A stretch of DNA of 64,000 nucleotides, from positions 1,240,001 through 1,304,000 of the forward strand of contig NZ_CP022685.1 in NCBI RefSeq assembly GCF_002556545.1, in the 5' to 3' direction. The notes under the pieces were generated by a model that was not told where the DNA came from, made no database searches, and saw only the letters and a program-made list of their open reading frames with translations. A program made the position numbers and the translations under genes. The stretch comes from Streptomyces formicae. Its GTDB lineage: Bacteria; Actinomycetota; Actinomycetes; Streptomycetales; Streptomycetaceae. This document shows positions 29,973 through 62,888 of the stretch, in pieces (position 1 is the first letter of the stretch; each line of letters begins with the position of its first letter).

Positions 29973-29980
29973 TGCCCGCC

Positions 29981-31216: not shown

Positions 31217-31224
31217 TACTGGCC

Positions 31225-42664: not shown

Positions 42665-44071
42665 TCAGCGTCGCGGCAGCAGCGCCCCCGCGCCAAGGGC
42701 CATGATCACCAGCAGGCAGGCGGCGGCGAGGAGGCTCTCCCGCATCCCCGTGGTGAAGTCCCCCGCCAGGAGTGCGCCGAAGGCGGCGATGCTCACCGCT
42801 CCGCCCGTCTGGCGACTGGTGTTGAGCAGGGCCGCCGCCGTGCCCGCCCGCTCGGCGGCGACGCTGTCGAGCATCAGGGAGGTCAGCGCGGGCATGGCGA
42901 GGGAGCCGCCGATGCCCAGCGGGATCATCAGCAAGGCGGTCACCCACGGGGGCGTACCGGGGTCGACGGGGAGCAGTACGGCGCAGCCCAGCGCGACGAT
43001 CAGCAGTCCTGCGATGACCACAGGACGCCGTCCGAAGCGGGTGACCGCCCGCGGCGAAAGGTAGTTGACGTTGGCGGTGATCAGCGCCATCGGCACGAAC
43101 ATCAGCCCGGCCGAGAGCGCCGACTGGCCCCGCTGCTCCTGGAAGAAGAGGCTCAGCACGAACACCCCTCCGTAAAAGGCCGCGTTGAGGGCGAAGCCCG
43201 AGATGACCGGCACGGTGACGCCGCGCAGCCGGAACAGCTCAAGCGGCAGCATCGGGTTGCGCCGCCGTGCCTCGACGGCCACGAATCCGGCCGCGGACAA
43301 CACCGCGAGCACGGTCGCGGCGAGGACGGTGCCGGTGAACCCGTCGTGCCCGCCCTCGATCACGGCGAAGGTCAGCGCGGCCAATGTCAGTACGGCCGTC
43401 AGCTGCCCCGGCAGGTCGAACGCGACGGCATGGCGCGGGGAGCGCTTCGCCCGCATCAGGGCCACGAACCCGACGACCCCGGTGGGCAGGTTGAGGCAGA
43501 ACACGGCGCGCCAACTCCACTCCGTGGTGAGCAGCCCGCCAAGGACGGGCCCCGCGGCAATGGCCACCGCGCCGCCGACCGTCCACAGGGCGATGCCGCG
43601 CGCCCGCTCCTCCGGGTCGGAGAACGCCTGCCTGATCAGCGCGAGCGATGAGGGCACCATCACCGCCGCCGCGGCCCCCTGCACCACGCGGGCCGCGATC
43701 AACACCCCGAGCGTCGGCGCCGCCCCGCAGGCCAGCGAGGCGAGAGTGAAGACTCCGAGCCCCCAGCCGTACGCGCGCCGCGCGCCCACGCCGTCCGAGA
43801 ACGCACCCGCGGAGAGCATCAGCGCCGCGAACATCAGCGTATAGCTGTCAACGACCCATTGGAGACCGGACATTGAGCCGCCGAGGTCGTCCCGCATGGC
43901 GGGCAGCGCGACGTTGACGCCGGAGACATCGATCGTGATCACGAAGAAGCCGAGAACGGAGGCAACCAGAGCCGCGCGGGCGGAACCCGGCTGTCCCGGC
44001 TGTCCCGGATCGTCCCCGGTGGGGGCGCCCGCCCCGGCCGCCGTGCCTGCGCCGGACTGTGTCGTACTCAT
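42665..44071 (-). CDS. DHA2-family MFS drug exporter
   Basis: 468 residues from ATG 44071 with GAGGAG upstream. Fourteen membrane segments; family motifs FFVITIDVSGVNVALPAM and LQWVVDSYTLMFAALML (helices 1-2), GAFSDGVGARRAYGWGL (motif A) and the motif-C-type glycine run AIAAGPVLGGLLT. Such proteins export dyes and antibiotics with protons. It is divergent from an XRE/MmyB-type regulator, and a 17-bp dyad between them is the likely operator. It may serve a product of the nearby cluster, but that is not shown. Confidence 0.88.
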   Translation of the reverse strand: MSTTQSGAGTAAGAGAPTGDDPGQPGQPGSARAALVASVLGFFVITIDVSGVNVALPAMRDDLGGSMSGLQWVVDSYTLMFAALMLSAGAFSDGVGARRAYGWGLGVFTLASLACGAAPTLGVLIAARVVQGAAAAVMVPSSLALIRQAFSDPEERARGIALWTVGGAVAIAAGPVLGGLLTTEWSWRAVFCLNLPTGVVGFVALMRAKRSPRHAVAFDLPGQLTAVLTLAALTFAVIEGGHDGFTGTVLAATVLAVLSAAGFVAVEARRRNPMLPLELFRLRGVTVPVISGFALNAAFYGGVFVLSLFFQEQRGQSALSAGLMFVPMALITANVNYLSPRAVTRFGRRPVVIAGLLIVALGCAVLLPVDPGTPPWVTALLMIPLGIGGSLAMPALTSLMLDSVAAERAGTAAALLNTSRQTGGAVSIAAFGALLAGDFTTGMRESLLAAACLLVIMALGAGALLPRR

Positions 44072-44203
44072 GGTGCACTGCTCCTCACCGCGCTGTCGCT
44101 GTGGATACGGCAAGCAGCGTGCCCTGCGCGTGCGCCCTTCTGGCAGGCCGAGATATGAGGGGGAGCACGGTGCCTGGCCCTGATACGGCCCCCCTGTGCG
44201 CGA

Positions 44204-44220
44204 CATTCTTTGCGAGAATG
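44204..44220. promoter_or_regulatory. Dyad over a -10 box between exporter and regulator
   Basis: CATTCT-TTGCG-AGAATG is a perfect 17-bp dyad. GAGAAT (44214-44219) within it ends six bases before the regulator's ATG 44226, so the dyad covers the promoter of a leaderless regulator transcript. Confidence 0.5.
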
Positions 44221-44225
44221 AACGG

Positions 44226-45098
44226 ATGACCGAAGGTACGGAACTGGGTCGCTTCCTCCGCGCCCGCCGCGGGCAGCTCCGCCCGCAGGACGTGGGCCTG
44301 CGGGCAGGCACGGGCGTCCGCCGCACTCCGGGGCTGCGCCGCGAGGAGCTGGCGACCCTCGCGGGGGTCAGCGTCGACTACTACACCCGCCTTGAGCGCG
44401 GCCGCGAGACGCGTCCTTCCCCCGCCGTCGTCGCCGCGCTCGGCGAGTCACTCCAGCTCTCCGACGACGCGCTGCACCGGCTGCACGAGCTGGTGGCGCT
44501 CGCCGCGGGCCAGCCACCGGCGCCGTCCCCAGGACCGGCGCGCCAGGTGCGCGATTCGGTGCGCGTCCTGCTGGAGACGGTGCGCCCCGCACCCGCCTAC
44601 GTCGTCAGCCGCACCAACGACCTGCTGGCCGCCAACCGGCCGGGGCTGCGGCTCTTCTCCGGCATCACGGACTGGCCGTGGGAGCGCCGCAACATCACGC
44701 GCTACATGTTCCTGCACCCGATGGGCCGCAAGCTGTACAGGGACTGGGAGGAGATGGCGGCGCACAGCGCGGGCCATCTGCGCGCGGTGGCGGGCGCCGA
44801 CCCGGACATGCCGGAGCTGGCCCAGCTCGTCGGTGAACTCGTGGTGAAGAGCCCGGAGTTCGCCCGGCTGTGGGAGCGGTACGACGTACAGGAGCGCGGC
44901 GGCGGCGAGAAGCACTTCCAGCACCCGGAGGTCGGCTCCATCCGCCTCTCCTTCGAGGTGATGATGATCTCCCGTACGGACGGCCAGCGCCTGGTCACCT
45001 ACCAGGCTCCGCCCGGCACCCCGGACCACGACGCGATGCTGCTCCTCGACATGGCGAGCCCCTCTGAGGCGACGCTCCCCGAGGAGGCCGAACGGTAG
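44226..45098 (+). CDS. XRE regulator with MmyB-like ligand domain
   Basis: 290 residues from ATG 44226. N-terminal HTH (residues 5-80: RRTPGLRREELATLAGVSVDYYTRLERG), then a PAS-like MmyB/MLTR ligand domain (APAYVVSRTNDLLAANR, NITRYMFLHP, GHLRAVAGADPD). Family members often control a divergent short-chain dehydrogenase or exporter. Here the DHA2 gene is divergent. Apparently leaderless and self-regulated through the dyad at 44204. Confidence 0.88.
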   Translation: MTEGTELGRFLRARRGQLRPQDVGLRAGTGVRRTPGLRREELATLAGVSVDYYTRLERGRETRPSPAVVAALGESLQLSDDALHRLHELVALAAGQPPAPSPGPARQVRDSVRVLLETVRPAPAYVVSRTNDLLAANRPGLRLFSGITDWPWERRNITRYMFLHPMGRKLYRDWEEMAAHSAGHLRAVAGADPDMPELAQLVGELVVKSPEFARLWERYDVQERGGGEKHFQHPEVGSIRLSFEVMMISRTDGQRLVTYQAPPGTPDHDAMLLLDMASPSEATLPEEAER

Positions 45099-45125: not shown

Positions 45126-45175
45126 GCCCGTACGCTCAGGAGGATTTCCTCCTGAGCGTACGGGCCATTTCTTTT
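45126..45175 (+). terminator. Strong intrinsic terminator ahead of the gene cluster
   Basis: GCCCGTACGCTCAGGAGGA (45126-45144) pairs perfectly with 45147-45165 and is followed by CATTTCTTTT. It separates the XRE gene from the biosynthetic operon. Confidence 0.88.
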
Positions 45176-45400: not shown

Positions 45401-46522
45401 ATGATGCAGAGTCTTGACATGCTGGCCGAGGACAGGCCCGATTCCGTGGTCGCGCTTTCACCGGGTGACATCGGTGGCCAATACCGTACGCACTCGGCAC
45501 CCACCCCCCACGGGCTCATGAGCGAGCTGCCGCTGACCGAGGCCGCGGCCCGTTCGGTGGGCGAAGGACGACTGATGACCCGCCGCGTCCTGAGCGGTAC
45601 CGACGACCGCCTGCTTGCCGTGGTCGGGCCGTGCTCGATCCACGACGTGAACGCCGGTCTGGCGTACGCGAAATCGCTGGGTGAACTGGCCGCCGACCTC
45701 GCCGACGACCTGGCGGTCGTCATGCGGGTGTACGTCGAGAAGCCCCGTACCACAGTCGGTTGGACCGGGCTGCTCACCGACCCGGCCCTCGACGGCAGCC
45801 TGGATGTCAACCACGGGCTGCGCACGGCACGGACGTTGATGCTGGAGATCGCCGAACTGGGGCTGCCCATCGCGACGGAGTGGCTGAGCCCGTCGGCTCC
45901 GGTGTACCTGGCCGACCTGATCTCCTGGGGAGCCATCGGCGCGCGGACCGTGGAGAGCCAGGTGCACCGGCAACTGGCGAGCGGCCTCCCCATGCCCGTG
46001 GGCATGAAGAACGGCAGCACCGGCTCCGTGAGCGTGGCCGTCGACGCCATCCGGTCCGCGGCCGCGCCGCACGCCTACCTCGGCGTCGACCGGGACGGCA
46101 GGGCGGTCACGCTGCGCACGAGCGGGAACCCCGACTGCCACGTGGTGCTCCGGGGCGGTTCCGGGCGGCCCAACTACCACCCCGAGAACGTGCGCGAGGC
46201 GGCCCGGCTCCTGGCGGCGGCCGCGCTGCCGACCGGCGTGGTCATCGACGCGAGCCACGGCAACAGCGGCAAGGACCACGAGCGACAGGCCGTGGTGGCG
46301 CGGGAGATCGGGGCACAGGTCGCGGCCGGGAACACGGACATCCGCGGCGTCATGCTGGAGGGCTTCCTGATCCCGGGGCGCCAGGACCTCGGCCCCGAAG
46401 AGCCCGTGTTCGGCCAGAGCGTCACCGATGCCTGCATGGGCTGGGACGCCACCGCGGACGTGCTGCGCGACCTCGCGGCCGCGACCCGTCAGCGCCGCGC
46501 CGTGACGGCATCGGCACGCTGA
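45401..46522 (+). CDS. DAHP synthase, type I (AroFGH-like)
   Basis: 373 residues. ATGs at 45401, 45404 and 45419 are all possible; GAGGA abuts the first. It condenses phosphoenolpyruvate and erythrose 4-phosphate in the first shikimate step. Type I motifs are clear: GPCSIHD (76-82, metal Cys78), KPRTTVGWTG (114-123), GARTVESQ (180-187), GMKNGSTG (201-208) and DASHGNSGK (283-291). Primary metabolism in Streptomyces normally uses the unrelated-looking type II enzyme, so a type I copy at the head of this operon is probably dedicated to supplying aromatic precursors. Only a 54-bp gap precedes the next gene. Confidence 0.9.
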   Translation: MMQSLDMLAEDRPDSVVALSPGDIGGQYRTHSAPTPHGLMSELPLTEAAARSVGEGRLMTRRVLSGTDDRLLAVVGPCSIHDVNAGLAYAKSLGELAADLADDLAVVMRVYVEKPRTTVGWTGLLTDPALDGSLDVNHGLRTARTLMLEIAELGLPIATEWLSPSAPVYLADLISWGAIGARTVESQVHRQLASGLPMPVGMKNGSTGSVSVAVDAIRSAAAPHAYLGVDRDGRAVTLRTSGNPDCHVVLRGGSGRPNYHPENVREAARLLAAAALPTGVVIDASHGNSGKDHERQAVVAREIGAQVAAGNTDIRGVMLEGFLIPGRQDLGPEEPVFGQSVTDACMGWDATADVLRDLAAATRQRRAVTASAR

Positions 46523-46575
46523 CCCCGTCATCACCCTTCGCCCCGCGACTCGCCGCAAGGAACAGGAGAGCGAGC

Positions 46576-47946
46576 ATGCTGGACATTCCCGCGCTGGGCC
46601 CGACCGGGCCCTATCGGACGCGGAACCGCACCACCGTGCCGGACGCTTCGGGCAGCCCGGCCCTCGAACTGGCATCAGTGCCCGGCCTGGTCGTCTCCCA
46701 CTGGATCGCTCAACTGCGCGGCAGCTCGCCCCTGCCCGTCGCCGACACGGCGGAGGTGCTCAAGAAGGCGGCCGACGTCTTCGAGACCCAGCAGATCCTG
46801 GGAGACGATCTGGCAGCCCACGAGCGGCGCACGGCCGCGCTGACGGGGACTCCTGTCGCGGTCGTGCGCGAGTGCGACCGGCTCATCACGGCGACCCTGC
46901 GCGACGTGGGACGGGCGCCGTCGGCGGCACGGCCCACGGGCTGCGCCCCGATCGGCACCCCCGTGCCCGGCGCGCCGTCGGCGGGCGCCGCGTGGCGCCG
47001 CACCGGAGACGTCTTCGCCGTACACACGGCGGGCAATAGCCCGGGGGTGCACGCCATGTGGCTGGAGGCCCTCGCGCTCGGCTACCGGGTCGTCGTCCGC
47101 CCCTCCACCCGGGACCCGCTCACCCCCTTCCGCCTGGTCACCGCGCTGCACGAGGCGGGAGTTCCCTCGACGCAGCTGGTCGTGGCGCCCTGCGACCATG
47201 CGACGGCGGACCTGATCATCGAGCGCTCGGACCGTGCCCTGGTGTACGGCGGCCAGGACGTCGTGGACAAGTACCGCAACCGCGCCGACGTCCGGCTGCA
47301 GGGCCCCGGCCGCTCGAAACTGGTCGTGGCCGCCGACGCGGACCGGGACGCCGGGCTCGGCCTTGCACGGATGGGCGCGCTCTATCACGCGGGGACCGCG
47401 TGCACCGCGACCACCGGCGTCCTCGTCGAACACGACCCGACAGGATTCGCCGGTGAACTGGCCGCCGCGCTGCACCAGGTGGAGGCACCGGCCGGGCCGC
47501 TGGACGACACGGCCCTCCTGCCGTGCCTGCCCGAGGCCGCCGCGGAACGTCTCGCGGCTGCGGTCCTGAACGGGACGAAGGACGCGGTCGTGCACCTGGC
47601 CCCGCGGGTCGAACGCCTCGGTGGTGCGGGTTCCCTGGCGACCGTGACGCCCGCGGTCGTGGAGCTGGAGTCCCCGAAGAACCCGTTGCTTTCGTACGAG
47701 GTGCCCTTCCCGTGCGTATGGGTCGCCCCCTTCGACCGGGGTGCCATGGACGTCCTCGACGACTCCTTGGTCCTCTCGCTGCACACCGATGACACGGCCC
47801 TCGTCTCCGAGGCCACGGAGCTCACGGCGGTCTCCAACGTGTACCGGAGCAGGCCGACCTCCTGGGTCCATCCGGACGTGCCGCACGACGGGTTCCTCGG
47901 CGAGTTCCTGATGCGGGCCAAGGGTCTTGCCCACGGCGCCCTGTGA
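46576..47946 (+). CDS. LuxC-like acyl reductase (aldehyde-dehydrogenase fold)
   Basis: 456 residues from ATG 46576 with AGGAG seven bases before. ALDH-superfamily fold of the LuxC/EhpG group: AGNSPG (152-157), GYRVVVRPSTRDP, and the catalytic cysteine in YHAGTACTATTG (Cys276). LuxC enzymes reduce acyl groups, held as thioester or acyl-AMP, to the aldehyde with NADPH. In griseoluteate biosynthesis an EhpF/EhpG pair reduces an aromatic acid this way. The operon also has an EhpF/LuxE-like ligase (53721), so reduction of an aryl or cinnamic acid is the favoured reading. No lux luciferase genes are present. Confidence 0.78.
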   Translation: MLDIPALGPTGPYRTRNRTTVPDASGSPALELASVPGLVVSHWIAQLRGSSPLPVADTAEVLKKAADVFETQQILGDDLAAHERRTAALTGTPVAVVRECDRLITATLRDVGRAPSAARPTGCAPIGTPVPGAPSAGAAWRRTGDVFAVHTAGNSPGVHAMWLEALALGYRVVVRPSTRDPLTPFRLVTALHEAGVPSTQLVVAPCDHATADLIIERSDRALVYGGQDVVDKYRNRADVRLQGPGRSKLVVAADADRDAGLGLARMGALYHAGTACTATTGVLVEHDPTGFAGELAAALHQVEAPAGPLDDTALLPCLPEAAAERLAAAVLNGTKDAVVHLAPRVERLGGAGSLATVTPAVVELESPKNPLLSYEVPFPCVWVAPFDRGAMDVLDDSLVLSLHTDDTALVSEATELTAVSNVYRSRPTSWVHPDVPHDGFLGEFLMRAKGLAHGAL

Positions 47947-47980
47947 GTAGCGGGACCGTACTCAACGCAAGGAGTGGCAA

Positions 47981-49330
47981 GTGAAGATCAACTCCAAGAG
48001 TGACCTCGAGTTCATGGAACGGATACAGCGGGAAGTGACCGCTCACCGCGGCGCGGCCTGTTCCGACGAGACCTCTTACACCGTGGACGACGCGTGGAAC
48101 GACACGTCGAAGCTGGCCGAGGTGTGGCACCGCGCGGGGCAGACGTCGGCCTACGCCTCGCTCGGCACGTTCTCGACGCAGGCGTTCCAGGACCTGCCCG
48201 CGACGTCCAAGGACGACCTCAAGGCCCGGCCCCTCGACTTCCTGCGGGTGCCGGTCGACGCGGGTCTGAAGTACTACCAGACGACAGGGACGACGGGGGC
48301 CCCCACGCCCACGCCGCGCACGGCCCAGGACATGATCGCCAACACCGTGTCCGTCGCCGAGGCATGGCGCCCGATGCTCGCTGACGGCGGACACCGCGCG
48401 CTGATCCTGCTGCCATCGGACATCGTGCCGGTGGCCGACCTGATGGTCGGCGTCTGCGAGTTCCTGGGAGTACCGCACGCCAAGGCATACCCGTACACCA
48501 CCGGGATCTCCGACTGGGACCGCATCATCGGCCTGTGGGAGGTGTTCCGGCCGACCGTCCTCTTCGTCGCGCCCGGTGTGCTCCTCGAATTCTCCCAGGT
48601 CATGAAGAGGCGCGGCCTCCTCGACCGGCTGAGCCAGTCCGTCGAACTCCTCATGCTGCTCGGCGAGGTGAGCACCCCCGAACTGCGCGCCATGGCCGGG
48701 CAGTGGTGGAACGCGCGCGCCTACGACGCGAGTTACGGCAGTACGGAGAGCGGCACCCTGGCCGCGTGCTGCGCGCAGGACAGGCTGCACCTGCTGCGCG
48801 GAGCCAACTACTTCGAGATCGCGAACGACGACGGCATCGTGCCCGCGGAGCCGGGGCGCGACGGCAGGCTCGTCGTCACCCCGCTCAACAACGACGCCCG
48901 CCCTCTGCTCCGTCTCGACATGGGCGACGAGGTGTCCCTGACGGACGGCTGTCCCTGCGGCGACAAAGCCCCGGTGGTGACGGTCCACGGCCGGGGAAGC
49001 GACGGAACCGAGATCAAGGGCAGCCGTGTGCGCACCCGCGACCTCGAAGGCGTCGTCTACGCGAACAGTGACGTCATGGGCTACCTGATCGAGGTCGACC
49101 AGGGCGGCACCTGGGCCAGGCTGCTCCTCGAACGGGACCCGAGCACCGACCGGGAGGCCGAGCCCGCGAAGAACGACCTCGTCCAGCGGCGCACGGGCGA
49201 ACGGCTCGGCTTCCGCTGGGACGAGGTCCGTTTCGTCAACCGGCTGCCGGTGACGACGAAGAGCGGCGGCTCCCAGAAGAGCTGGAAGCGCTCCAACTTC
49301 CGCGTCGTCGACGAGGTGGTGCCCGCATGA
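47981..49330 (+). CDS. PaaK-type phenylacetate-CoA ligase-like enzyme
   Basis: 449 residues from GTG 47981 after AAGGAG. Full-length PaaK-type ANL enzyme: P-loop YYQTTGTTGAPTPTPRT (98-114), YGSTESG (252-258), RLDMGDE (311-317), a CPCG metal-type pair (324-327) and a C-terminal domain rich in lysines (TTKSGGSQKSWKRS). It forms an aryl-AMP and then a thioester; whether with CoA or with the operon's ACP is open. It overlaps the next gene by ATGA. Its length fits family norms. Confidence 0.82.
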   Translation: MKINSKSDLEFMERIQREVTAHRGAACSDETSYTVDDAWNDTSKLAEVWHRAGQTSAYASLGTFSTQAFQDLPATSKDDLKARPLDFLRVPVDAGLKYYQTTGTTGAPTPTPRTAQDMIANTVSVAEAWRPMLADGGHRALILLPSDIVPVADLMVGVCEFLGVPHAKAYPYTTGISDWDRIIGLWEVFRPTVLFVAPGVLLEFSQVMKRRGLLDRLSQSVELLMLLGEVSTPELRAMAGQWWNARAYDASYGSTESGTLAACCAQDRLHLLRGANYFEIANDDGIVPAEPGRDGRLVVTPLNNDARPLLRLDMGDEVSLTDGCPCGDKAPVVTVHGRGSDGTEIKGSRVRTRDLEGVVYANSDVMGYLIEVDQGGTWARLLLERDPSTDREAEPAKNDLVQRRTGERLGFRWDEVRFVNRLPVTTKSGGSQKSWKRSNFRVVDEVVPA

Positions 49331-51066
49331 CGTACGACATGCGGCAGGGCTCGTCCGGTGTCGTATCCGGCGATTCCGACCTGTGGTGCACCTACGCGGC
49401 CGTGCGGACCCTCAGCTGGCTCGAGCGCACCGGTGACCTGCCATCCCCCGAGACCGTCGGCGGCTTCCTCGCCTCCCGCCAGAACTCCGACGGCGGTTAC
49501 GCGTGGTCGGCGGGCATGAGCTCCGACGCCTGGGCCACGTACTACTGCACGCAGGCGATGGCCGATCTGCCGGACGGCAGCCGCGGCGCGGTCGGCAGTC
49601 CGAGTTCCGCCTGGGTGTGGGGAACCGCGCACGAGGACGGCGGGTTCGCGATGATGCCCGGTCAGTCGTCGGACGTGTGGGCCACCTACTACGCCGTACG
49701 CACCCTGGTGGAGATCTGTGGTGAGCGGCCCCCTGAGGCGCTGTTCGACTGGCTGGCGGCGCTGCAGGCCGAGGACGGCGGTCTGGCCTGGAGCCCGGCC
49801 CACGCGAAGGACGGCGCCTCCGACGCTCGGGCCTGCTACTACGCCATCACCGCCTGGAGCACGGCCACCGGTGGGCAGGGTCCGCTGCCGTGGGACCGCG
49901 AGCGGCTCACGGGCTGGCTCAGGGACCGGCAGAGCGCGGCCGGTGGTTTCACCTTCCAGGCGGGCGACGGGACGGACTGCCTGTGGGCGACGTTCCGGGC
50001 CGTCAGCGCGTTGCGGCGCCTGGACGAGAACCCGCGGGACGCCGAGGGCTGCGTCGCCTGGATCCGGGACCGGCTCCTTCCCGGCGGGTCGTTCACCCGG
50101 TGGCCCGGCTACCCCGTGCCGGACGTGTGGGCCGCGTTCTGCGGGGTGGGCGCACTGCGGGAGTTGGGCGCGGGCCTGGCGGACATCGCCGACCCGGTGG
50201 TCGAAGCGGTGTTGTCCTTCCGCACCGGCCAGGGCGGATTCACCTACCGCACGCCCGGCCTCGCGTCGGACGTGCTCACCACCTCCGCCCACCTGCTGGC
50301 CGGGCACTTCTCGGGCGGCGGGGAACGCGACGCCCTGCGGTGGGTGGAGGGGTGCGTGATGCCGAACGAGCACGGCGTCATGTATATGCCCGGTCGGGGC
50401 AGTGAGGTGCGGTGCACGCTCTGGGCCCTGTCGGCGGGGGCGTTCCAGGACGACGCACAGGGCCGCGCCAGGATCGCGGACTGGCTCGCCTCCTCCATCC
50501 AGAACCCCGACGGCGGCTTCGGCTACTGGGAGGGCCGCGCGTCGGACATGGTGTCGACGAGCGCGGCCGCTGAGATCCTCCACCGGACCGGCGGGAGCCC
50601 CGCCGCCGCCTCCCTGCGGGGCATCGCCGCGTACGTGGCCACCTGCGAGACGGCGCCAGGGCAGTACGCCAACGTGCCCGGCGGCAGGCCCACGCTGCGC
50701 GCCACCCTGCAGGCGCTCAGGGCGCTGCACCGGTCCGACGGGTCCGACGGGTCCGACGGCGCCCGCGTCGGCGACGTGCTCGCCCGGCACCGGGTCCGCG
50801 GCGGGGGATTCGCGAACGAGGGCAACCGCGTCCCCGACCTCCTGAGCACCTACGAAGCCGTGGTGGCGGCGGACACCTTCGGCCTCGAATGGGACACCGG
50901 CCACCTCACGAAGTTCCTGGACAGCGTGCGCACCGCGGACGCCGGGTTCGCCTGGACCCCCCTCATGGCCACGAGCGGCGGGCCGCTCGCCGACTGTCTG
51001 GGGCGGCGCCTTGAGCTGCGCCTCTCGCCCGCTCAGCACGCGCTGCCGCCGCTGGCCCTCTCCTGA
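49327..51066 (+). CDS. Prenyltransferase/cyclase-type alpha-alpha repeat protein
   Basis: 579 residues; ATG overlaps the ligase stop. Built from about ten repeats of 45-50 residues of the form DGGF/Y-x(6)-SD-x-WATYY-x-V-x-TL (first NSDGGYAWSAGMSSDAWATYY, then EDGGFAMMPGQSSDVWATYY, later GGFGYWEGRASDMVSTS), the signature of the alpha-alpha barrels of terpene cyclases and prenyltransferase beta subunits. No DxDD cyclase motif, DDxxD motif or clear zinc triad is seen, so classic terpene cyclisation or protein prenylation is doubtful. No isoprenoid genes are nearby. It may be a scaffold or a new type of cyclase. A SDGSDGSDG run from a 9-bp slip repeat lies near residue 473-481. Confidence 0.7.
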   Translation: MTYDMRQGSSGVVSGDSDLWCTYAAVRTLSWLERTGDLPSPETVGGFLASRQNSDGGYAWSAGMSSDAWATYYCTQAMADLPDGSRGAVGSPSSAWVWGTAHEDGGFAMMPGQSSDVWATYYAVRTLVEICGERPPEALFDWLAALQAEDGGLAWSPAHAKDGASDARACYYAITAWSTATGGQGPLPWDRERLTGWLRDRQSAAGGFTFQAGDGTDCLWATFRAVSALRRLDENPRDAEGCVAWIRDRLLPGGSFTRWPGYPVPDVWAAFCGVGALRELGAGLADIADPVVEAVLSFRTGQGGFTYRTPGLASDVLTTSAHLLAGHFSGGGERDALRWVEGCVMPNEHGVMYMPGRGSEVRCTLWALSAGAFQDDAQGRARIADWLASSIQNPDGGFGYWEGRASDMVSTSAAAEILHRTGGSPAAASLRGIAAYVATCETAPGQYANVPGGRPTLRATLQALRALHRSDGSDGSDGARVGDVLARHRVRGGGFANEGNRVPDLLSTYEAVVAADTFGLEWDTGHLTKFLDSVRTADAGFAWTPLMATSGGPLADCLGRRLELRLSPAQHALPPLALS

Positions 51067-51092
51067 AAGACACGCACGAAAGGCACGGAGTC

Positions 51093-51557
51093 TTGCCGAC
51101 CGTCGAAGTGACCAGCACCCCGCTGACCCCCTCAACGCGGCTCAAGGCCGCCATCCGCCTCACCCGTTGGCTGGCCGCGCACGGTTCGGACCCCGCACAC
51201 GCCGTGGTCTCCTTCCGTGCCGCGGAGCCCATGACGTACTTCGCGGGCGGGATGCCGCTGACGAAGTTCGAGGACGGCACGGGTGAGGACAGGCGCGCCC
51301 GATGGGCGTCCGTCGTGTGCCACATCCATCCCGAACGCGACCACACCTACCGGGCGGAACTCGCCGAGGAGATCAAAGAGGCCCTCGGCCTCGCCGCGGA
51401 CACCGCCCACTTGATGGTCCGGTTCGAAGCCACCCAACCCGACCGGGTGCTCTACCTGGAATCGGGGTCGATGACGAACGGCCGCCCGCTACCGGCCGGC
51501 CACAGCCAAGAGACCGGCCACAGCCAAGAGAAAGGTTCCCGCCATGCACACAGCTGA
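51093..51557 (+). CDS. MIF-like tautomerase-superfamily protein
   Basis: 154 residues from TTG 51093, with GGAG close upstream. This start is chosen because it puts Pro right after the initiator Met, the catalytic Pro1 of the tautomerase superfamily. The sequence follows MIF: an N-terminal strand PTVEVTSTPLT, a long helix, AVVSFRAAEPMTYFAGGMPL (as MIF VVPDQLMAFGGSSEP), then DHTYRAELAEEIKEALGL and VRFEATQPDRVLYLESG. MIF proteins tautomerise phenylpyruvates in vitro, fitting an aromatic pathway. The C-terminal tail carries two GHSQE units from a perfect 18-bp tandem repeat (51496-51531), and its end overlaps the ACP start. Confidence 0.62.
   Translation: MPTVEVTSTPLTPSTRLKAAIRLTRWLAAHGSDPAHAVVSFRAAEPMTYFAGGMPLTKFEDGTGEDRRARWASVVCHIHPERDHTYRAELAEEIKEALGLAADTAHLMVRFEATQPDRVLYLESGSMTNGRPLPAGHSQETGHSQEKGSRHAHS
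51496..51531 (+). repeat. Perfect 18-bp tandem duplication in the tautomerase tail
   Basis: CCGGCCACAGCCAAGAGA occurs twice in a row (51496-51513, 51514-51531), in frame, just before the ACP ribosome site. It lengthens the tail by six residues and looks like recent slippage. Confidence 0.9.
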
Positions 51558-51819
51558 CCAGACCGAGATCAGCACCCGCGTCCTTGCCCTCCTCGAGAAG
51601 CGCTTCGGCGACACCGTCCTCTCGCTGGCCCCGGACGCCGACCTGTCCGACGCCCTGCCGGGGTTCGACAGCCTGGCGGCCCTCGAATACGTCACCGCCG
51701 TCGAGAGCGAGTTCGACTTCGAGGTCGACTTCGTCGGCGACGACGTGCGCTACTGGTTCAGCACGCTCGTGCGGACATCCGAGTACGTGCGCGAACGCGT
51801 CGAGGACCAGGCGGCATGA
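51544..51819 (+). CDS. Stand-alone acyl carrier protein
   Basis: 91 residues from ATG 51544, with AAAGG upstream, inside the end of the tautomerase gene (14-bp overlap). The phosphopantetheine site is PGFDSLAALEY (Ser about residue 42). The rest is acidic, ending in VRTSEYVRERVEDQAA. It overlaps the short AMP ligase by ATGA, so it is probably the partner of that ligase. As the only carrier on the plus strand, it likely carries the aryl or cinnamoyl group between ligase, SDR and reductase. No ketosynthase is present to extend the chain. Confidence 0.88.
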   Translation: MHTADQTEISTRVLALLEKRFGDTVLSLAPDADLSDALPGFDSLAALEYVTAVESEFDFEVDFVGDDVRYWFSTLVRTSEYVRERVEDQAA

Positions 51820-52835
51820 CGGCGACGGAGGCTCGCACGGCGCAGGCCCTGGCCGATGGCCGCGAGGAGATCCCCCTGGACACCTCCGGCAGCACGGGTG
51901 CCGCGCGTCGCTGGTTCCGGCTCCCGCACCAGATGGAGCGCGAGGTGGAGCTGATCGGCACGCACCTCGTCGGCCCGGTCGACCGCGTCGTCAGCTACGC
52001 GCCGCCGCACCACCTGTTCGGCGCCCTGTTCGGACAGTGGCTGCCGCGCATGGCGCGGGTGCCCGTCCAACAGGCGTGGGCCGATCCGTACGAGCCCCCG
52101 TCGGTCTCCCCCGGTGAACGGGTCCTCGTCGTCTGCGTCCCGATGGCCTGGGAGCTGCTGCGCCGCGCCTGGCCCGCGCTGGAGCGCGCGCGCTCGATCG
52201 TCGCCCTGCACAGCTCCGCGGCCCCGCCGCGCGCCGCCCAGGACCTCGTCCGCCGAGCCGCCCCGCTGCTCCGGGCCCACGAGATCCTGGGGTCGACCGA
52301 GACCGGGGGCATCGGCCACAGGCCCCTGACTCCCGGGGGCAGGGCCGCCGACCCGTGGCGGGCCTTCCCCGACGTGGACTTCGTCCGTCCCGCCGACGCA
52401 CCGGCGGGACGGGCGGAGGACCTCGTGGTCCGTGGCCCGCGCCTGGCCCGCCCGGAGCACGGGACGCGGCCGCCCGACCAGTGGGCCACCGGCGACCTGG
52501 TGGAATTCACCGGACCCCGTGCTTTCCGCCTCATCGGGCGCGACAGCTCCCTGATCAAGGTGAACGGAATCAGGGTGCATCTCGCCAGGGTCGACGAGCG
52601 GTTGAACGCCCTCCTGCCGCAGGCGGAATGCGTCGCGGTGCCCCTGCCCGACGATTCGATCGCCGGAGAGGGATACGCGGTCTTCTGGTCCTGCCCCGGC
52701 AAGGAAGTGGGCGTCGCGGACATCAGAGCGGCTCTCCGGGATTTCCCGAGCCCGTCGAGGGTCGTGGAATTGGCGGACGTACCGAGGACGTCCGCCGGAA
52801 AGCCGGATCGAAAGGCGCTTTTGGCGGCGCTCTGA
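51816..52835 (+). CDS. N-terminally short acyl/aryl-AMP ligase
   Basis: 339 residues. ANL enzyme that starts only about 20 residues before the P-loop LDTSGSTGAARRW (21-33), so it lacks some 130-150 residues of the usual first subdomain. All later motifs remain: GSTETGG (159-165), WATGDLVEF (223-231), GRDSSLIKVNG hinge and C-domain, and the catalytic lysine K329 in TSAGKPDRK. Similar short AMP ligases occur next to ACPs and ammonia lyases in aryl-polyene and flexirubin clusters, where they load the aryl starter on ACP. The ATGA overlap with the ACP gene supports that role. Confidence 0.78.
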   Translation: MTATEARTAQALADGREEIPLDTSGSTGAARRWFRLPHQMEREVELIGTHLVGPVDRVVSYAPPHHLFGALFGQWLPRMARVPVQQAWADPYEPPSVSPGERVLVVCVPMAWELLRRAWPALERARSIVALHSSAAPPRAAQDLVRRAAPLLRAHEILGSTETGGIGHRPLTPGGRAADPWRAFPDVDFVRPADAPAGRAEDLVVRGPRLARPEHGTRPPDQWATGDLVEFTGPRAFRLIGRDSSLIKVNGIRVHLARVDERLNALLPQAECVAVPLPDDSIAGEGYAVFWSCPGKEVGVADIRAALRDFPSPSRVVELADVPRTSAGKPDRKALLAAL

Positions 52836-52849
52836 TCCGCCGCCCCGTC

Positions 52850-52873
52850 AGCTCGTTAGCTCGTTAGCTCGTC
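52850..52873 (+). repeat. Three 8-bp tandem units before the SDR ribosome site
   Basis: GCTCGTTA occurs twice and then as GCTCGTCA, just upstream of the AAAGGA site of the SDR gene. Low-complexity slippage; may tune translation spacing. Confidence 0.7.
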
Positions 52874-52888
52874 AAAGGAAATTCGACT

Positions 52889-53650
52889 GTGCCCAGGTTG
52901 ATCGTGGTGACCGGTGCGAGCGCCGGTATCGGCAAGGCCTCGGCGAAGCGGTTCGCCGAGAACACCGACAAGGTGCTGTTGATCGCCAGGGGGCGGGACC
53001 GCCTCACGCGAGCGGCCGAGGAGATCGCGTCGAGCGTCCCCGGCGCGGACCTCGAACCGCTCGCCCTCGACATGTCCGACGCCGAGTCGGCTCAGACCCT
53101 CCAGAACCACATCAGGTCGATCGGACTGCCCGTCAACAGCGTGGTGTGCTGCGCCGGTTCGGTCCCGAGGTCCGAGGACGAGGCCGAAGGAAAGGACGTA
53201 CGAACGGTCCTGACGGAATGGCAGGAGGCATACGAGGCGAACGTCCTGACCTCCGTCATCGCCGTGGAGGGCCTGCTCCCCCACATGGCCGACGGCGGCA
53301 GCATCGTGCTCTACAGCTCCATCGCCGCCTACCGGGGCTCCCGGGGAACGGGCGGATACGGCGCCGCGAAGGCCGCCCTCCACTCGTACGTCCACTCCCT
53401 CGCGACGCGCCTGGGCCCGCGCGGCATCAGCGCGAACGTCATCGCGCCGGGATACATCGCGGGCACCGACCTCTTCGGCGACGGCCTCTCCGCCGCGCGG
53501 GAGACCATGCTCGTCCGGCAGACCGCTCTTCGCCGCGCCGGGGATCCGGCCGAGGTCGCCGAACTCGGCTTCTACCTCTGCTCACCGGCCGGTGGCTATG
53601 TCACCTCGCAGATCCTCCAGATCAACGGCGGCTCGTACCACGGCGTTTGA
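52889..53650 (+). CDS. Short-chain dehydrogenase/reductase
   Basis: 253 residues from GTG 52889, with AAAGGA before it. Classical SDR: TGASAGIGKAS (cofactor), LDMSD, NVLTSVIA, and the catalytic Ser-Tyr-Lys (YSSIAAYRG, YGAAKAAL). The third-strand arginine region (LIARGRDRL) suggests NADPH. C-terminal part is FabG-like (GDPAEVAELGFYLCSPAG). In this operon it could reduce the aldehyde made by the LuxC-like enzyme to the alcohol, or a keto or enone group; which is unknown. Confidence 0.87.
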   Translation: MPRLIVVTGASAGIGKASAKRFAENTDKVLLIARGRDRLTRAAEEIASSVPGADLEPLALDMSDAESAQTLQNHIRSIGLPVNSVVCCAGSVPRSEDEAEGKDVRTVLTEWQEAYEANVLTSVIAVEGLLPHMADGGSIVLYSSIAAYRGSRGTGGYGAAKAALHSYVHSLATRLGPRGISANVIAPGYIAGTDLFGDGLSAARETMLVRQTALRRAGDPAEVAELGFYLCSPAGGYVTSQILQINGGSYHGV

Positions 53651-53720
53651 GAACACCGTCGGCTCCGCCCACCCCCTCCTCGCCCTCACTCCCCCGAACA
53701 AGAAAGCACGGTGACACGCG

Positions 53721-54791
53721 ATGAACGCCCGCGAACAGGCCGACGCGCACGTCCGCGCCATGATGCGCTGGCACTTCGAACCGGCCACGGGCTCCCGGTA
53801 CTGGCTGGACCGCCGCCACCAGCTGGGCTTCGACCCCGTCGAGGACGTGCGGTGCGTCGACGACCTGCTGAAGTTCCCCAACCTGGTGGACGAACTCCGG
53901 GACGTGCCGGTCGAGGACCTGATCCCCCGCGGCCTCGACGCCACGGAGAAGGTCTTCGCCGTGTACGAGAGCGGTGGCACCACCGGGGCGCCCAAGCGCT
54001 TCGTGATGTTCGAGAACTGGTTCGACCAGTACATGGCGTGGGAGAACTCCCAGTACCCCGACGACGGTACGGGGCACGCCCTCGCCGTCGCGCCCAGCGG
54101 CCCCCACATGCTCGGCGAGTACTCGAAGCGGATCGCGGAGGCCAGGGGCGGCATCCGGTTCTCCATCGATCTGGATCCGCGCTGGGTGAAGCGGCTGCTC
54201 GCCGCCGGTGACACCGCGGGCGCCGGCGCCTACGTCGACCACCTCGTCGACCAGACCGAACTGGTCCTGCAGTCCCAGGACATCGCCTTCCTGATCACGA
54301 CGCCCCCGCTCCTCGCCCGGCTCGCCGAACGGGCCTCGTCCCGCGCCCTGATCCAGGAGAAGGTGCGCCTGGTGATCTGGACGGGAGCGCACATGGACCC
54401 CGACACCCTCGACTACCTGTCCACGGAGCTCTTCCCCAAGACGCGGTTCCGGGGGTCGTACGGCAGCACCTCCGTCCTCAGCGGCACGGTGCAGCGCACC
54501 GCCCCGGAAAGCACGGGCGACACGGGCGACACGGGAGACACGGTCTTCGACTCGTACGCCCCCTTCGTCATCTACCGCGTGGTCGACCCCGCCTCCGGCC
54601 TGCCGGTCGAGTTCGGGTCGGAGGGAACCGTCGTCATGAACTACCTCACCAAGTACGGCCTCGTGCCCAACAGCCTCGAACGCGACCTGGCCACGCGGGT
54701 CCCCAGCCCCACGGGCGCCGGGGACTCCCTGCGCAACATCCATCCGGTCGCCGAGGTCGACGGCCAGAAGATGATCGAAGGCGTCTACTAA
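53721..54791 (+). CDS. C-terminally short PaaK/EhpF/LuxE-type AMP ligase
   Basis: 356 residues from ATG 53721. P-loop YESGGTTGAPKR (82-93) and GSYGSTSV core are intact, but the chain ends about 80 residues short of PaaK, so the mobile C-domain is missing. The adenylating enzyme EhpF and acyl-protein synthetase LuxE have this short form and work with a LuxC-type reductase. The second ligase of PaaK type in the operon, it is the best partner of the reductase at 46576. A GDTGDTGDT run comes from 9-bp slip repeats (about 54517-54543). The stop is two bases before the lyase start. Confidence 0.75.
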   Translation: MNAREQADAHVRAMMRWHFEPATGSRYWLDRRHQLGFDPVEDVRCVDDLLKFPNLVDELRDVPVEDLIPRGLDATEKVFAVYESGGTTGAPKRFVMFENWFDQYMAWENSQYPDDGTGHALAVAPSGPHMLGEYSKRIAEARGGIRFSIDLDPRWVKRLLAAGDTAGAGAYVDHLVDQTELVLQSQDIAFLITTPPLLARLAERASSRALIQEKVRLVIWTGAHMDPDTLDYLSTELFPKTRFRGSYGSTSVLSGTVQRTAPESTGDTGDTGDTVFDSYAPFVIYRVVDPASGLPVEFGSEGTVVMNYLTKYGLVPNSLERDLATRVPSPTGAGDSLRNIHPVAEVDGQKMIEGVY

Positions 54792-54793
54792 CC

Positions 54794-56446
54794 ATGTCCG
54801 CGGCCCCACACCTCGAACTCGACGGGACCGGCCTCTCGCCGCGCGCGGTCGCCGCGGCCGCGCGCCGACCCGGCCGCGACACCCGGGTGACACTCACTCC
54901 CGCGGCCGTCAAGCAGATGCACGCCTCCGTGGAACTCAAGGAGACGCTGCTGGCTCAGGAAGTCCCCATCTATGCCGTGACGACGGGCTTCGGAGACAGC
55001 TGCGTACGGCAGATCTCGCCGGACAAGGCACACGAACTCCAGCGCAACCTGGTGCTCTACCACCTCAACGGGGTGGGGCCGAAGGCCGTGCCCGAGGTCG
55101 CCAGGGCCACGATGCTCATCAGGGCCAACTCGCTGGCCAAGGGCGTCTCGGCGATCCGGCCGCAGGCGGTGACGACCCTCCTGCACTGCCTGAGCCGGGA
55201 CATCCTGCCGTTGATCCCCGAACGCGGGTCGGTCGGCGCGAGCGGTGATCTGGTGCCGCTGTGCTACCTGGCCGCGGAGCTGATCGGTGAAGGCCAGGTC
55301 CTGCACCGCGGCACCGTGCGCCCGGCGCTCGCGGCCCTGCACGACGAGGGCATCGAGCCGCTGCGGCTCGCACCCAAGGAGGGCATCGCGCTGATCAACG
55401 GAACCTCCTTCGCGGCCGGGTACGCGGTCCTCGCCGCCGCGGACGCGAGGGAACTCGTCTTCGTCGCCGAACTCGCGACGGCCATGACGCTGGAGGCGCT
55501 GCACGGCAACGCGTCCGCACTGCATCCCTTCGTCCACGAGAACAAGCCGCACCAGGGCCAGGTCCAGTCCGCCAGGGCCGTCAGGGCACTGCTCGCGGGG
55601 TCGCGCCTCGCCACGTCCTTCGACGACATCCTGGTGCGCCGCGAAAGGCTGGCAGGCCGCGACTACCTCCAGCTGAACGAGCGGATCCAGGACAAGTACT
55701 CGGTGCGCTGCGCCCCGCAGATCATCGGCATCGCCCGTGACACGCTCGACTGGACGGAGCAATGGCTCGGCACCGAGATCAACTCCGCCACCGACAACCC
55801 CCTGTTCGACGTCGACGAGTCCGGGCTCCATCTCGGTGGGAACTTCTACGCGGGCCACGTCGGGCAGTCCATGGACAGTCTGAAGACCGCGGTGGCGGGC
55901 CTTGCCAACCTGCTCGACCGGCAGCTCGCACTCGTCGTGGACGAGAAGTTCAACGAGGGACTGCCACCCAACCTGATCGCCGCACGCAGCCCGGACGACC
56001 CCGAGGCGGGGCTGCACCACGGCTTCAAGGGCATGCAGATAGCGGCTTCGGCCGTCACCGCCGAGGCCCTCAAACAGACGGGTCCTGTCTCGGTGTTCTC
56101 GCGCTCCACGGAGGCGCACAACCAGGACATCGTCAGCATGGGCACCATCTCGGCCCGTGACGCGCGCACCGTCAACGGCCTGGTGCGCGAAGTAGCGGCC
56201 ATCCATCTGCTCGCCCTCGCCCAGGCCGTCGAGCTGCGCGGCGCAGAGAAGGCGTCGCCCGTCGTCCGCGCGGTGCACGCGCTGATCAGGGAGCACAGCG
56301 ACTTCGTCACGCGCGACCGCCGCCTCGACCAGGACATCGAGGCCGTGACCGCCCTGATCGAGACCGGCGCCCTGCGGCGCGCCGCAGGGCTCGGGGACGA
56401 GGACTTCACCGAGGGCCGGGAACTCGCCGACCAGCACCAGAAATAA
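54794..56446 (+). CDS. MIO aromatic amino-acid ammonia-lyase (TAL/PAL/HAL family)
   Basis: 550 residues. The MIO prosthetic group forms from Ala-Ser-Gly at 149-151 (GSVGASGDLVPL); Tyr60 in IYAVTTGFG is the catalytic tyrosine. At the substrate-selecting pair (HAL has Ser-His, Rhodobacter TAL His-Leu, plant PAL Phe-Leu) this protein has Tyr89-His90. The family glutamine/asparagine sites (NGTSF, LNERIQDKYSVRC, EINSATDNPL, STEAHNQD) are present. It is thus likely a tyrosine or phenylalanine lyase, giving coumarate or cinnamate; a 2,3-aminomutase is the alternative. The operon context argues against histidine degradation. Confidence 0.85.
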   Translation: MSAAPHLELDGTGLSPRAVAAAARRPGRDTRVTLTPAAVKQMHASVELKETLLAQEVPIYAVTTGFGDSCVRQISPDKAHELQRNLVLYHLNGVGPKAVPEVARATMLIRANSLAKGVSAIRPQAVTTLLHCLSRDILPLIPERGSVGASGDLVPLCYLAAELIGEGQVLHRGTVRPALAALHDEGIEPLRLAPKEGIALINGTSFAAGYAVLAAADARELVFVAELATAMTLEALHGNASALHPFVHENKPHQGQVQSARAVRALLAGSRLATSFDDILVRRERLAGRDYLQLNERIQDKYSVRCAPQIIGIARDTLDWTEQWLGTEINSATDNPLFDVDESGLHLGGNFYAGHVGQSMDSLKTAVAGLANLLDRQLALVVDEKFNEGLPPNLIAARSPDDPEAGLHHGFKGMQIAASAVTAEALKQTGPVSVFSRSTEAHNQDIVSMGTISARDARTVNGLVREVAAIHLLALAQAVELRGAEKASPVVRAVHALIREHSDFVTRDRRLDQDIEAVTALIETGALRRAAGLGDEDFTEGRELADQHQK

Positions 56447-56512
56447 GGACGAGAACGAGAAGACAGCAGCATCGCGGCGAGCGCGGTGGGTCAACTGAGG
56501 AGGTAGAAAGGC

Positions 56513-56986
56513 GTGTTGAAGAAGAAGACGTGCGCCGTATTCGGCATGGCCGCGAGCGGGGTGCTTGCCGTGGGCGTATCCGCCGCTCTCACCGTTCCCG
56601 CGCAGGCCTCGTCCCAGGAAGTCATCAACCTGGCCGTGGGCAACAACGGGGTCGTGCACACCGACGTCGGCGCCCCCGGTCTGAGCGTCGGGGACGAGTT
56701 CGTGTACGCCGACAAGCTGTCCCAGGGCGGCCACCAGATCGGCAAGGACGGCAGCTCCTGCCAGGTGACCGAGCTGGTGGGCTCGGACATCACCACCAAC
56801 TGCGTGCTTTCGGTACAGCTACCGAAGGGGCAGATCACGGCGCAGTCCCTGTGGGTGAAGGGCAGCGACACGGTGCGGATGGCCATCACCGGTGGCACCG
56901 GCGCCTACCGCGGTGCAACTGGCGAGCTGACGTGCAACGACATCCAGACTCCGAAGGAGACGTACCGCATCACGTTGGACAAGTGA
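56513..56986 (+). CDS. Secreted allene-oxide-cyclase-barrel protein (dirigent-like)
   Basis: 157 residues from GTG 56513 with AGGAGG upstream. Signal peptide: LKKK, hydrophobic to about residue 27, cleavage after PAQA near 31-32. The mature 125 residues have the AOC/dirigent eight-strand barrel pattern: VGDEFVYADKLSQGGHQIGKD, SCQVTELVG, NCVLSVQLPKGQITAQSL, and the hallmark AITGGTGAYRGATGE. In plants this fold guides stereoselective cyclisation or phenol coupling. In Streptomyces such proteins occur in clusters with no settled role. As last gene of the phenylpropanoid-like operon, it may act on the exported product, which is inference. Confidence 0.8.
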   Translation: MLKKKTCAVFGMAASGVLAVGVSAALTVPAQASSQEVINLAVGNNGVVHTDVGAPGLSVGDEFVYADKLSQGGHQIGKDGSSCQVTELVGSDITTNCVLSVQLPKGQITAQSLWVKGSDTVRMAITGGTGAYRGATGELTCNDIQTPKETYRITLDK

Positions 56987-58550: not shown

Positions 58551-58698
58551 GATGGAGACTCCTACTCCCTTTGCTGGTTCCTCTACTGGCTCGTACTGGT
58601 TCGGACAGGAGCTGGTGGGCGGGGGCCCGCACGTGGTCGGGGGCCGGTGCGGACACCGGCCCCCGATCTCTGGCCCCTGACCCCTGACAGGGGGCGTC

Positions 58699-62840: not shown

Positions 62841-62888
62841 GACGGCCCGACTCCGTTCTCTGCGATCTCTTCGTTCTCGTCGTGTGCG

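Follow-up and report, generated by a model that had tools for sequence, protein, structure and literature searches.

The described systems closest to the locus discussed here are the gene clusters for grixazone (gri), griseoluteic acid (ehp) and bagremycin/ferroverdin (bag/fev). According to excerpts of the respective reports, GriC activates 3-amino-4-hydroxybenzoic acid (3,4-AHBA) as the acyl-AMP and GriD mediates its reduction (PMC10179220); EhpF and EhpG are located in phenazine operons (PMC3175449), as in Proteus mirabilis BL95, where a 3-deoxy-D-arabino-heptulosonate 7-phosphate (DAHP) synthase and a short-chain dehydrogenase/reductase (SDR) accompany them (PMC11278526); and the bag and fev clusters contain a tyrosine lyase (BagA/FevV), a DAHP synthase (fevY/bagF) and a PaaK-like ligase (fevW/bagE) (PMC6692506). 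The subject of this paper is a cluster of 13 genes in a stretch of 64,000 nucleotides of Streptomyces formicae DNA (contig NZ_CP022685.1, positions 1,240,001 to 1,304,000; the whole stretch is called the window below), in which relatives of these enzymes are combined with a five-gene cassette, C-D-E-F-G, that includes a free-standing acyl carrier protein (ACP). The chances seem to us about even that the cluster directs the synthesis of a natural product, a small aromatic aldehyde or alcohol derived from tyrosine that the cassette makes on the carrier protein, with entry through the lyase J and acid reduction by the pair I/B; such a pathway would operate without a ketosynthase or peptide synthetase. 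We know of no compound from any such cluster.

A conserved set of thirteen genes

Genes A to K are eleven open reading frames (ORFs), all on the plus strand between 45401 and 56986 of the window, with short gaps or overlaps. An earlier note on this DNA, made from the sequence alone, had described them as a co-directional, mostly overlapping operon of monolignol-like type; their positions and arrangement were confirmed, and only the extent has to be enlarged, the cluster proper being 13 genes that also include an upstream regulator and a divergent exporter gene of the major facilitator superfamily (MFS). The features are as follows.

42665..44200, minus strand: MFS exporter gene (start codon unsettled, ORF 42665-44326; PF07690, scanned over 42668-43942)
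44196..45098, plus strand: MmyB-type XRE regulator with ligand-binding domain (PF17765, E 6.6e-54; HTH_31)
45126..45165, plus strand: terminator-like hairpin in the gap between regulator and operon (18 pairs, loop of 4, T-rich tail)
45401..46522, plus strand: A, type I DAHP synthase of the AroF/G/H kind (TIGR00034, 430 bits, cut-off 173)
46576..47946, plus strand: B, acyl reductase of the aldehyde dehydrogenase superfamily, EhpG/GriD-like (PF00171)
47981..49330, plus strand: C, PaaK-like AMP ligase, cassette gene 1 (NCBIfam relatives DVU_1553, FlxY and BagE, all below cut-off)
49327..51066, plus strand: D, alpha/alpha-toroid protein, probably two tandem toroids, cassette gene 2 (PF00432)
51093..51557, plus strand: E, tautomerase-superfamily protein with Pro after Met, cassette gene 3 (fold and N-terminal proline)
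51544..51819, plus strand: F, free-standing ACP, cassette gene 4 (PF00550)
51816..52835, plus strand: G, short AMP ligase, relative of the 4-coumarate ligase of photoactive yellow protein (PYP), cassette gene 5 (TIGR02372 best in NCBIfam)
52889..53650, plus strand: H, FabG-like SDR (PF13561, E 2.9e-42)
53721..54791, plus strand: I, EhpF/GriC-like adenylating half of a reductase (EhpF 3hgu/3l2k, E 1.5e-86)
54794..56446, plus strand: J, aromatic lyase with a 4-methylideneimidazole-5-one (MIO) group, probably a tyrosine ammonia-lyase (PF00221, 540 bits)
56513..56986, plus strand: K, secreted barrel like that of allene oxide cyclase (AOC), homolog of pyocyanin demethylase (PF18678, E 1.4e-23; 5k21, E 2.3e-22)

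The families given for A, B, F, H, I, J and K, and the co-conservation described below, rest on homology. The scores of C, G and I with PF00501 (25.7, 15.7 and 29.4 bits) all stay below the cut-off of 29.9, but on other evidence the three are AMP-binding enzymes. The note's list of families (DAHP synthase, MIO lyase, three AMP ligases, ACP, SDR, AOC-like barrel) was confirmed with Pfam and NCBIfam profiles, and the same searches found neither a ketosynthase nor a condensation domain in A-K, as it had claimed. The host genome (9.61 Mb on a single contig) encodes two class I DAHP synthases, A among them, and two of class II, and the named relatives of the proteins in the window are mostly from Streptomyces. 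A scan for terminators gave four sites, against a mean of 3.2 after shuffling, with the hairpin at 45126-45165 having by far the longest stem; a promoter scan gave none.

Presence of the genes in other genomes was scored by tblastn; the starts proposed by a gene caller are less reliable, some being missed or misplaced. Ten distinct relatives of the cluster were compared, nine from Streptomyces (L045, L046, L076-L082) and one from Actinokineospora bangkokensis (L083); L047 and L048 are on the same contig as L080, which is counted once. All ten have genes A-I, K and the MFS gene, eight have J and seven the regulator, and the MFS ortholog (76-92% identity) adjoins the cluster every time. The three genes 3' of K occur in none, one and one of the ten within the stretches examined, that of L076 being short downstream of K. 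The set is complete even in L046, where the operon points the other way with respect to the regulator, and in L083, where A and K are encoded on the strand opposite to the remaining genes. Since it is kept in ten distinct relatives despite these rearrangements, the set reflects more than chance adjacency, which can be excluded as an explanation for A-K. Pairwise divergences of the core genes B, C, D, E and G correlate with r of 0.94-0.97, those of K and the MFS gene less well; the correlation among the core genes is partly an effect of species relatedness. When 392 genomes of the genus were searched for E, 11 of them, counting the own genome, had a match; nine of the matches are accompanied by cassette genes, and at the two weak ones (genomes G046 and G151, loci L054 and L055) no operon genes were detected.

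Probable tyrosine entry and acid reduction

The lyase J carries the MIO-forming Ala-Ser-Gly triad and ranks, among the NCBIfam models, BagA/FevV (670.7 bits) before the histidine lyase subfamily (446.2 bits) and tyrosine aminomutase (390 bits), staying below the cut-offs of the first two. Since the BagA/FevV cut-off of 1000 is not reached by J and is passed by the lyase of locus L136 (1147.9 bits), J is best called BagA-like and not a formal member of the model. The two enzymes share the selectivity pair Tyr-His, and the L136 enzyme is encoded beside a gene of the dehydroquinate synthase (DHQS) family. The solved relatives of J are led by tyrosine aminomutase. Judged from these comparisons J is probably a tyrosine ammonia-lyase, and an aminomutase is less likely. 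Histidine lyase, an identification that the earlier note had named as speaking against its proposal, was rejected for J, since the scores disfavour it (446 against 671 bits) and a different gene of the genome matches PF00221 more strongly. The note's lyase feeding a phenylpropanoid route is thus supported, and we hold with considerable confidence that tyrosine enters the pathway.

In an alignment of 26 lyases from cassette-bearing clusters (the L051/L093 contig being counted twice), 12 have the pair Tyr-His, 11 His-Leu and three Ser-His. The two Ser-His enzymes that were scored exceed the tyrosine aminomutase cut-off of 501 bits (819 and 775 bits), and His-Leu is a pair that we take to mark tyrosine lyases, as in the Rhodobacter enzyme. 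Because three kinds of MIO enzyme have been recruited, a cinnamate-type substrate for the cassette is suggested.

The second well-supported step is the reduction of an acid to an aldehyde, which we regard as likely. Gene product I matches EhpF over residues 9-356, near its full length, and Cys276 of B, conserved in 95% or more of 31 family members, is by its position the predicted catalytic cysteine. In the operon the two genes stand apart, B being the second and I the ninth. Elsewhere the I-B pair occurs without the cassette in all 20 loci examined among the stronger B matches, as direct neighbours in 19 of them and with one gene in between in L067; no DHQS-family gene was found in the stretches examined around these 20 loci. 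Conversely, 15 of the 77 listed places with a DHQS-family gene were examined and one of them has the pair; at L122, relatives of I and B (40% and 31% identity) lie near a DHQS-family gene that matches 3,4-AHBA synthase best (690.3 bits, cut-off 750). EhpF and EhpG presumably act as an acid reductase in their phenazine operons as well. Because of the EhpF match, the role of GriC/GriD, the L122 pair and the 20 I-B loci free of DHQS-family genes, I and B are predicted to form a general two-component aryl carboxylic acid reductase, the substrate of which we infer. The acid-to-aldehyde reductase of the earlier note is thus supported; the pair belongs to the EhpF/EhpG-GriC/GriD family of aryl-acid reductases and not to the cinnamoyl-CoA reductases. 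It had called B LuxC-like; B matches PF00171 and not the LuxC family PF05893, but some of its relatives carry both, so that the description is fair. At L067 (3361-14867) the I-B pair is accompanied, judging from sequence starts, by genes resembling class II DAHP synthase and aminolevulinate synthase and by ligases, and this locus looks like a cluster for a C5N unit.

The C-G cassette and the surroundings of the cluster

The earlier note missed the most distinctive part of the locus, the cassette C-G, which is present in other clusters too. A scan of the genome collection for D by two peptide patterns gave at least 46 loci in at least seven genera. This number is a lower bound, because only two patterns were used and records near the own genome may have been missed. 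In 41 of these 46 loci, those of type 1 (the cluster described here, A-K with MFS gene and regulator) among them, tblastn detected all five cassette genes. Of the remaining five, L113, L114 and L117 end inside the cassette, L095 has E according to ORF clustering, and in L121 (Kutzneria) E is on the other strand and F and G were not found; in L110, G is interrupted by the contig end. The hosts include Streptomyces, Actinokineospora, Saccharopolyspora, Nocardia, Amycolatopsis and Lentzea, among others. A further 13 loci are of Pseudomonas type (L092, L094, L095, L097-L100, L102-L106 and L117, the last cut short), one of them labelled Pantoea, and the 3 kb piece L114 carries the label Melainabacteria.

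Outside type 1 the operon splits into two portable parts, the I-B pair and the C-G cassette; many other clusters contain the latter but neither I nor B. The family names used for the other cluster types, where no Pfam scan was made, come from ORF clustering and reading of sequence starts. Type 2 combines C-G with asparagine synthase, an amidase, often a MIO lyase (not seen in copies L087, L109 and L116), class II DAHP synthase, an aldo/keto reductase, an SDR, a MarR-like gene and an MFS gene. Type 3, from Pseudomonas, has C-G with an amidase, asparagine synthase, a LysR-like gene and sometimes class II DAHP synthase. In type 4 (L051, the same contig as L093, from Streptomyces glaucescens) C-G is accompanied by class II DAHP synthase, a BagA-like lyase, an SDR, a secreted protein resembling SMP-30 and strictosidine synthase, 5-enolpyruvylshikimate-3-phosphate synthase and chorismate synthase; L088 and L090 resemble this type, with no lyase in the stretch examined. 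In type 5, ATP-grasp and further ligases are found. Shikimate-pathway genes are thus frequent companions, in line with tyrosine as the starting point: the class II DAHP synthase ORF group, of which one member was checked with Pfam, occurs in 25 of the 55 stretches examined. In the Pseudomonas-type loci the cassette mostly stands with an amidase-type and an asparagine synthase-like gene, and a MIO lyase was not seen. At L049 (6778-10756) a copy of the cassette has D and the lyase J split over frames, which may reflect decay or sequencing errors.

Within the cassette, a lenient pattern for the phosphopantetheine site is found in 49 of 50 relatives of F, and the solved relatives of C are 9s3l, AjiA1 and 6siw, the last two of which we take to be ester-forming ligases. 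Protein D has the alpha/alpha-toroid fold of prenyltransferases and terpene cyclases, according to PF00432 and structure comparison. The statement of the earlier note that no terpene synthase is present therefore holds only in part: the DxDD motif is absent from D (one of 54 relatives has DGDD), for which reason terpene chemistry was rejected for D, but the fold is that of these enzymes. A match to the beta subunit of protein prenyltransferase, a single toroid with Zn ligands that pairs with a separate alpha subunit, covers residues of about 10-289 (VIA-align), and no gene for the alpha subunit was seen in A-K with Pfam or NCBIfam. The VIA-align match covers the first half only; D is probably two toroids in tandem, as suggested by Foldseek matches to two-domain cyclases (TM-score only 0.39) and by a weak similarity of its halves to each other (E 8e-7). 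Protein E gave no Pfam match, though the earlier tautomerase call is borne out by its N-terminal proline and beta-alpha-beta fold. Nearest in fold are the hydratases cis-CaaD and Cg10062, with MIF and 4-OT members within about one Z unit. Besides the proline, cis-CaaD uses His28, Arg70, Arg73, Tyr103 and Glu114 for catalysis.

It is conceivable, though we consider it rather doubtful, that C-G is a portable, ketosynthase-free machine for aromatic acids in which the toroid D forms carbon-carbon or carbon-heteroatom bonds on acyl groups. In such a machine C and G would charge one carrier, F, the tautomerase-fold protein E would activate the chain and D would join. The front end would be exchangeable (a MIO lyase of one of three kinds or no lyase, a DAHP synthase of class I or II), and so would the back end, be it an aryl-acid reductase with a secreted barrel, an amidotransferase with an amidase, or a secreted SMP-30-like protein.

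Some neighbouring genes were also considered. The halogenase and adenylation-peptidyl carrier protein-thioesterase genes downstream were rejected as cluster members, being present in only one of the ten relatives; it is only in L045 that a halogenase and a peptide synthetase follow the operon. At 57057-63998 of the window (minus strand) there is probably another small cluster, comprising a Na/H exchanger, a tryptophan-halogenase-like flavoenzyme, such an adenylation-carrier-thioesterase unit and a partial gene for a flavin enzyme. Four of the 11 type-1 loci (L078, L080, L081 and L083) have a gene of the flavin-dependent (FAD) aromatic-ring hydroxylase family (PF01494 and Rng_hyd_C, by a scan in L081) close to the cluster, and two of them (L080 and L081) also have one for a zinc alcohol dehydrogenase; both are possible optional tailoring genes. 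Further away, three tandem genes with near-identical starts (MW-QQPPGGEQN...) at 28877-32328 (plus strand) are perhaps a recent triplication, and the gene at 36594-37763 (minus strand), the start of which reads as elongation factor Tu, is perhaps an additional tuf copy.

Competing readings and known systems

In the route that we prefer, A would raise the shikimate flux toward tyrosine, J would deaminate tyrosine to p-coumarate, and G would load this acid onto the phosphopantetheine arm of F, while C, coupled to D, would adenylate the same or a second aromatic acid. By means of its N-terminal proline, E may hydrate or isomerise the ACP-bound enoyl chain, and D, which probably has two chambers, would receive the activated acyl groups and carry out release, joining or cyclisation. 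The released aromatic acid would be adenylated by I and reduced to the aldehyde by B, after which H may reduce (or re-oxidise) the carbonyl, the MFS protein would export the product, and K might act on it outside the cell or protect the surroundings of the cell from it. We infer the order of these steps and all chemistry of D and E, and the roles given here to these two proteins are unlikely to be correct as they stand. An action of K on the product is a tentative proposal. The formation of p-coumaroyl-ACP is given slightly less than an even chance, lowered from even because of the genome of L087 with its single lyase and the scores of the His-Leu lyases.

A number of observations weigh against this route. 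The score of G with the 4-coumarate ligase model is far below the cut-off (TIGR02372, 72 against 334.7 bits), and most solved ligases match only the C-terminal part of this short protein, in which much of the N-terminal half is missing. The characterised relatives of I and B use benzoate- or phenazine-type acids and not cinnamates. As to catalytic competence D is a candidate enzyme only, and for E the catalytic residue examined was proline 1. The remaining points concern the lyase. Both His-Leu enzymes that were scored (L053, 314 bits; L107, 300 bits) rank the histidine lyase model first (cut-off 524), which advises against giving the residue rule much weight for a tyrosine-type activity of this kind. 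J is missing in two of the 11 type-1 clusters (L080 and L081) and may therefore be dispensable in place; the two clusters are very similar and are best regarded as one case. In favour of the route, both genomes have a second PF00221 gene elsewhere, one of them (L150) with the His-Leu pair as read by eye, but these genes fit the histidine lyase model best (330 and 326 bits, cut-off 524). A MIO lyase was found in none of the 13 Pseudomonas-type loci in the stretches examined, and there is just one PF00221 gene in the L097 genome (Pseudomonas) and just one in that of L087 (Streptomyces, with a lyase-less type 2 cluster). Since lyase-less loci and such genomes exist, p-coumarate cannot be assumed to be the universal substrate of the cassette. 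Of the other Pseudomonas genomes searched, three have two PF00221 genes and one has three. A Pseudomonas PF00221 gene away from the cassette, L147, matches BagA/FevV best (403 bits, below the cut-off) and is 45% identical to J.

The same findings can be read in other ways. The fold of E, nearest to cis-CaaD and Cg10062, would suit a chain-shortening sequence in which E hydrates p-coumaroyl-ACP, a C6-C1 acid of the 4-hydroxybenzoate type arises by retro-aldol reaction or oxidation, and I/B convert this to an aldehyde of the 4-hydroxybenzaldehyde type, leading to a hydroxybenzoid product as in the tailoring of grixazone and griseolutein. The known relatives of I and B do reduce aryl carboxylates, and H, as a FabG-like SDR, could in principle oxidise a beta-hydroxyacyl intermediate. 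However, MIF and 4-OT are within about one Z unit of the hydratases, and no thiolase, crotonase-type hydratase/lyase or 4-hydroxybenzoate gene was seen in A-K, so we find this sequence unlikely, though worth keeping in mind. Less probable still is the coupling of two substrates, in which C and G would activate different aromatic acids, C and D would join them as an ester or amide, and the reductase would act on the conjugate. The relatives of C include BagE/FevW as well as the structures 6siw and AjiA1 mentioned above, the bagremycin and nataxazole ligases offer analogues, C-D and E-F-G occur together in 41 of 46 loci, and cluster types 2 and 3 add an asparagine synthase-like amidotransferase and an amidase; but the operon has no obvious source of a second acid, and C shares only 26% identity with the ligase encoded next to the bagremycin-type lyase of L136.

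The monolignol model of the earlier note, with p-coumaryl aldehyde or alcohol coupled outside the cell and K as dirigent guide, is right for the front end and, so far as the evidence goes, wrong for the coupling. DAHP synthase, tyrosine lyase, acid activation, acid-to-aldehyde reductase and SDR are all present, and K, which has a signal-like N-terminus (read by eye) and is kept in 11 of 11 type-1 clusters, has an AOC-like barrel as was claimed. Its dirigent score, on the other hand, stays below the cut-off (PF03018, E 1.3e-4, 22.2 against 29.1 bits), and the only clear solved relative is pyocyanin demethylase. A radical-forming oxidase (laccase, peroxidase or P450) was not found with Pfam in the 13 cluster genes, to which this search was confined. 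The ACP, D, E and two further ligases would have no role in a monolignol route, and the acid reductase is of another type than the cinnamoyl-CoA reductases, so that dirigent-guided coupling is very improbable. Even less credit can be given to a pathway for detoxification or degradation of plant phenolics. Streptomyces do meet such compounds, and K resembles an enzyme that presumably degrades a foreign phenazine, but a DAHP synthase in the operon is biosynthetic, ring-cleavage and beta-oxidation genes were not seen in A-K with Pfam or NCBIfam, and the cluster is patchily distributed (11 of the 392 genus genomes have a match to E) and has an exporter and a regulator of its own. A phenazine or 3,4-AHBA product was rejected: core genes for these were not seen in A-K, and the only PF01959 (DHQS-family) gene of the host genome, at 7,838,497, is 6.5 Mb away from the cluster.

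If the preferred route through tyrosine, the cassette and I/B is correct, it represents a common and overlooked bacterial route of phenylpropanoid type without polyketide or peptide synthetases, in which a fold known from terpene cyclases, the toroid, has come to serve acyl chemistry. The cassette offers a simple hook for genome mining, as illustrated by the scan with D, and since some type-1 hosts are deposited (Streptomyces galbus DSM 40089, Actinokineospora bangkokensis 44EHW), one could look for the product in them directly.

It remains to compare the cluster with known systems. It shares the tyrosine lyase, DAHP synthase and PaaK-like ligase with the bag/fev clusters, as far as these are described in the excerpt cited above; unlike these it lacks 3,4-AHBA synthase, and tblastn (E up to 1e-6) detected no relatives of D, E and F in 20 kb around the bag-type lyase of L136. 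With the ehp operon, according to the corresponding excerpts, it has in common the DAHP synthase (phzC, aroH), EhpF (I), EhpG (B) and SDR (PMC11278526) and the MFS exporter (PMC3175449), whereas the phenazine core genes were not seen in A-K and the lyase and C-G cassette are there instead. The likeness to gri lies in the GriC/GriD pair, as well as in the I and B relatives of L122 near a gene resembling 3,4-AHBA synthase; the difference is again the missing 3,4-AHBA synthase. Loading of the PYP chromophore and of the flexirubin starter presumably also uses a tyrosine lyase and a 4-coumarate ligase to feed a carrier or protein thiol. The scores of G and C with the PYP/flexirubin ligase models are weak, and neither a ketosynthase nor a photoactive yellow protein was seen in A-K. 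D resembles class II terpene cyclases and prenyltransferase beta subunits in its toroid fold and differs in the missing DxDD, and isoprenoid genes were not seen among the 13 cluster genes.

K is related in sequence to PodA, the pyocyanin demethylase, and shares its AOC-like barrel, but is encoded in a biosynthetic operon. PodA is reportedly a cofactor-free tautomerising demethylase; of the residues that we take to be functional, the C-terminal Glu-x-Tyr aligns with K and the His does not. The earlier note had not recognised the combination as a described pathway, and in the open-licence literature, to which the search was restricted (subscription literature and cluster databases being outside it), we likewise found no published description of the cluster or of the C-G cassette. 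The parts as such are known, whereas their combination and the C-G cassette seem to be undescribed, and it is possible that D represents a categorically new enzyme role.

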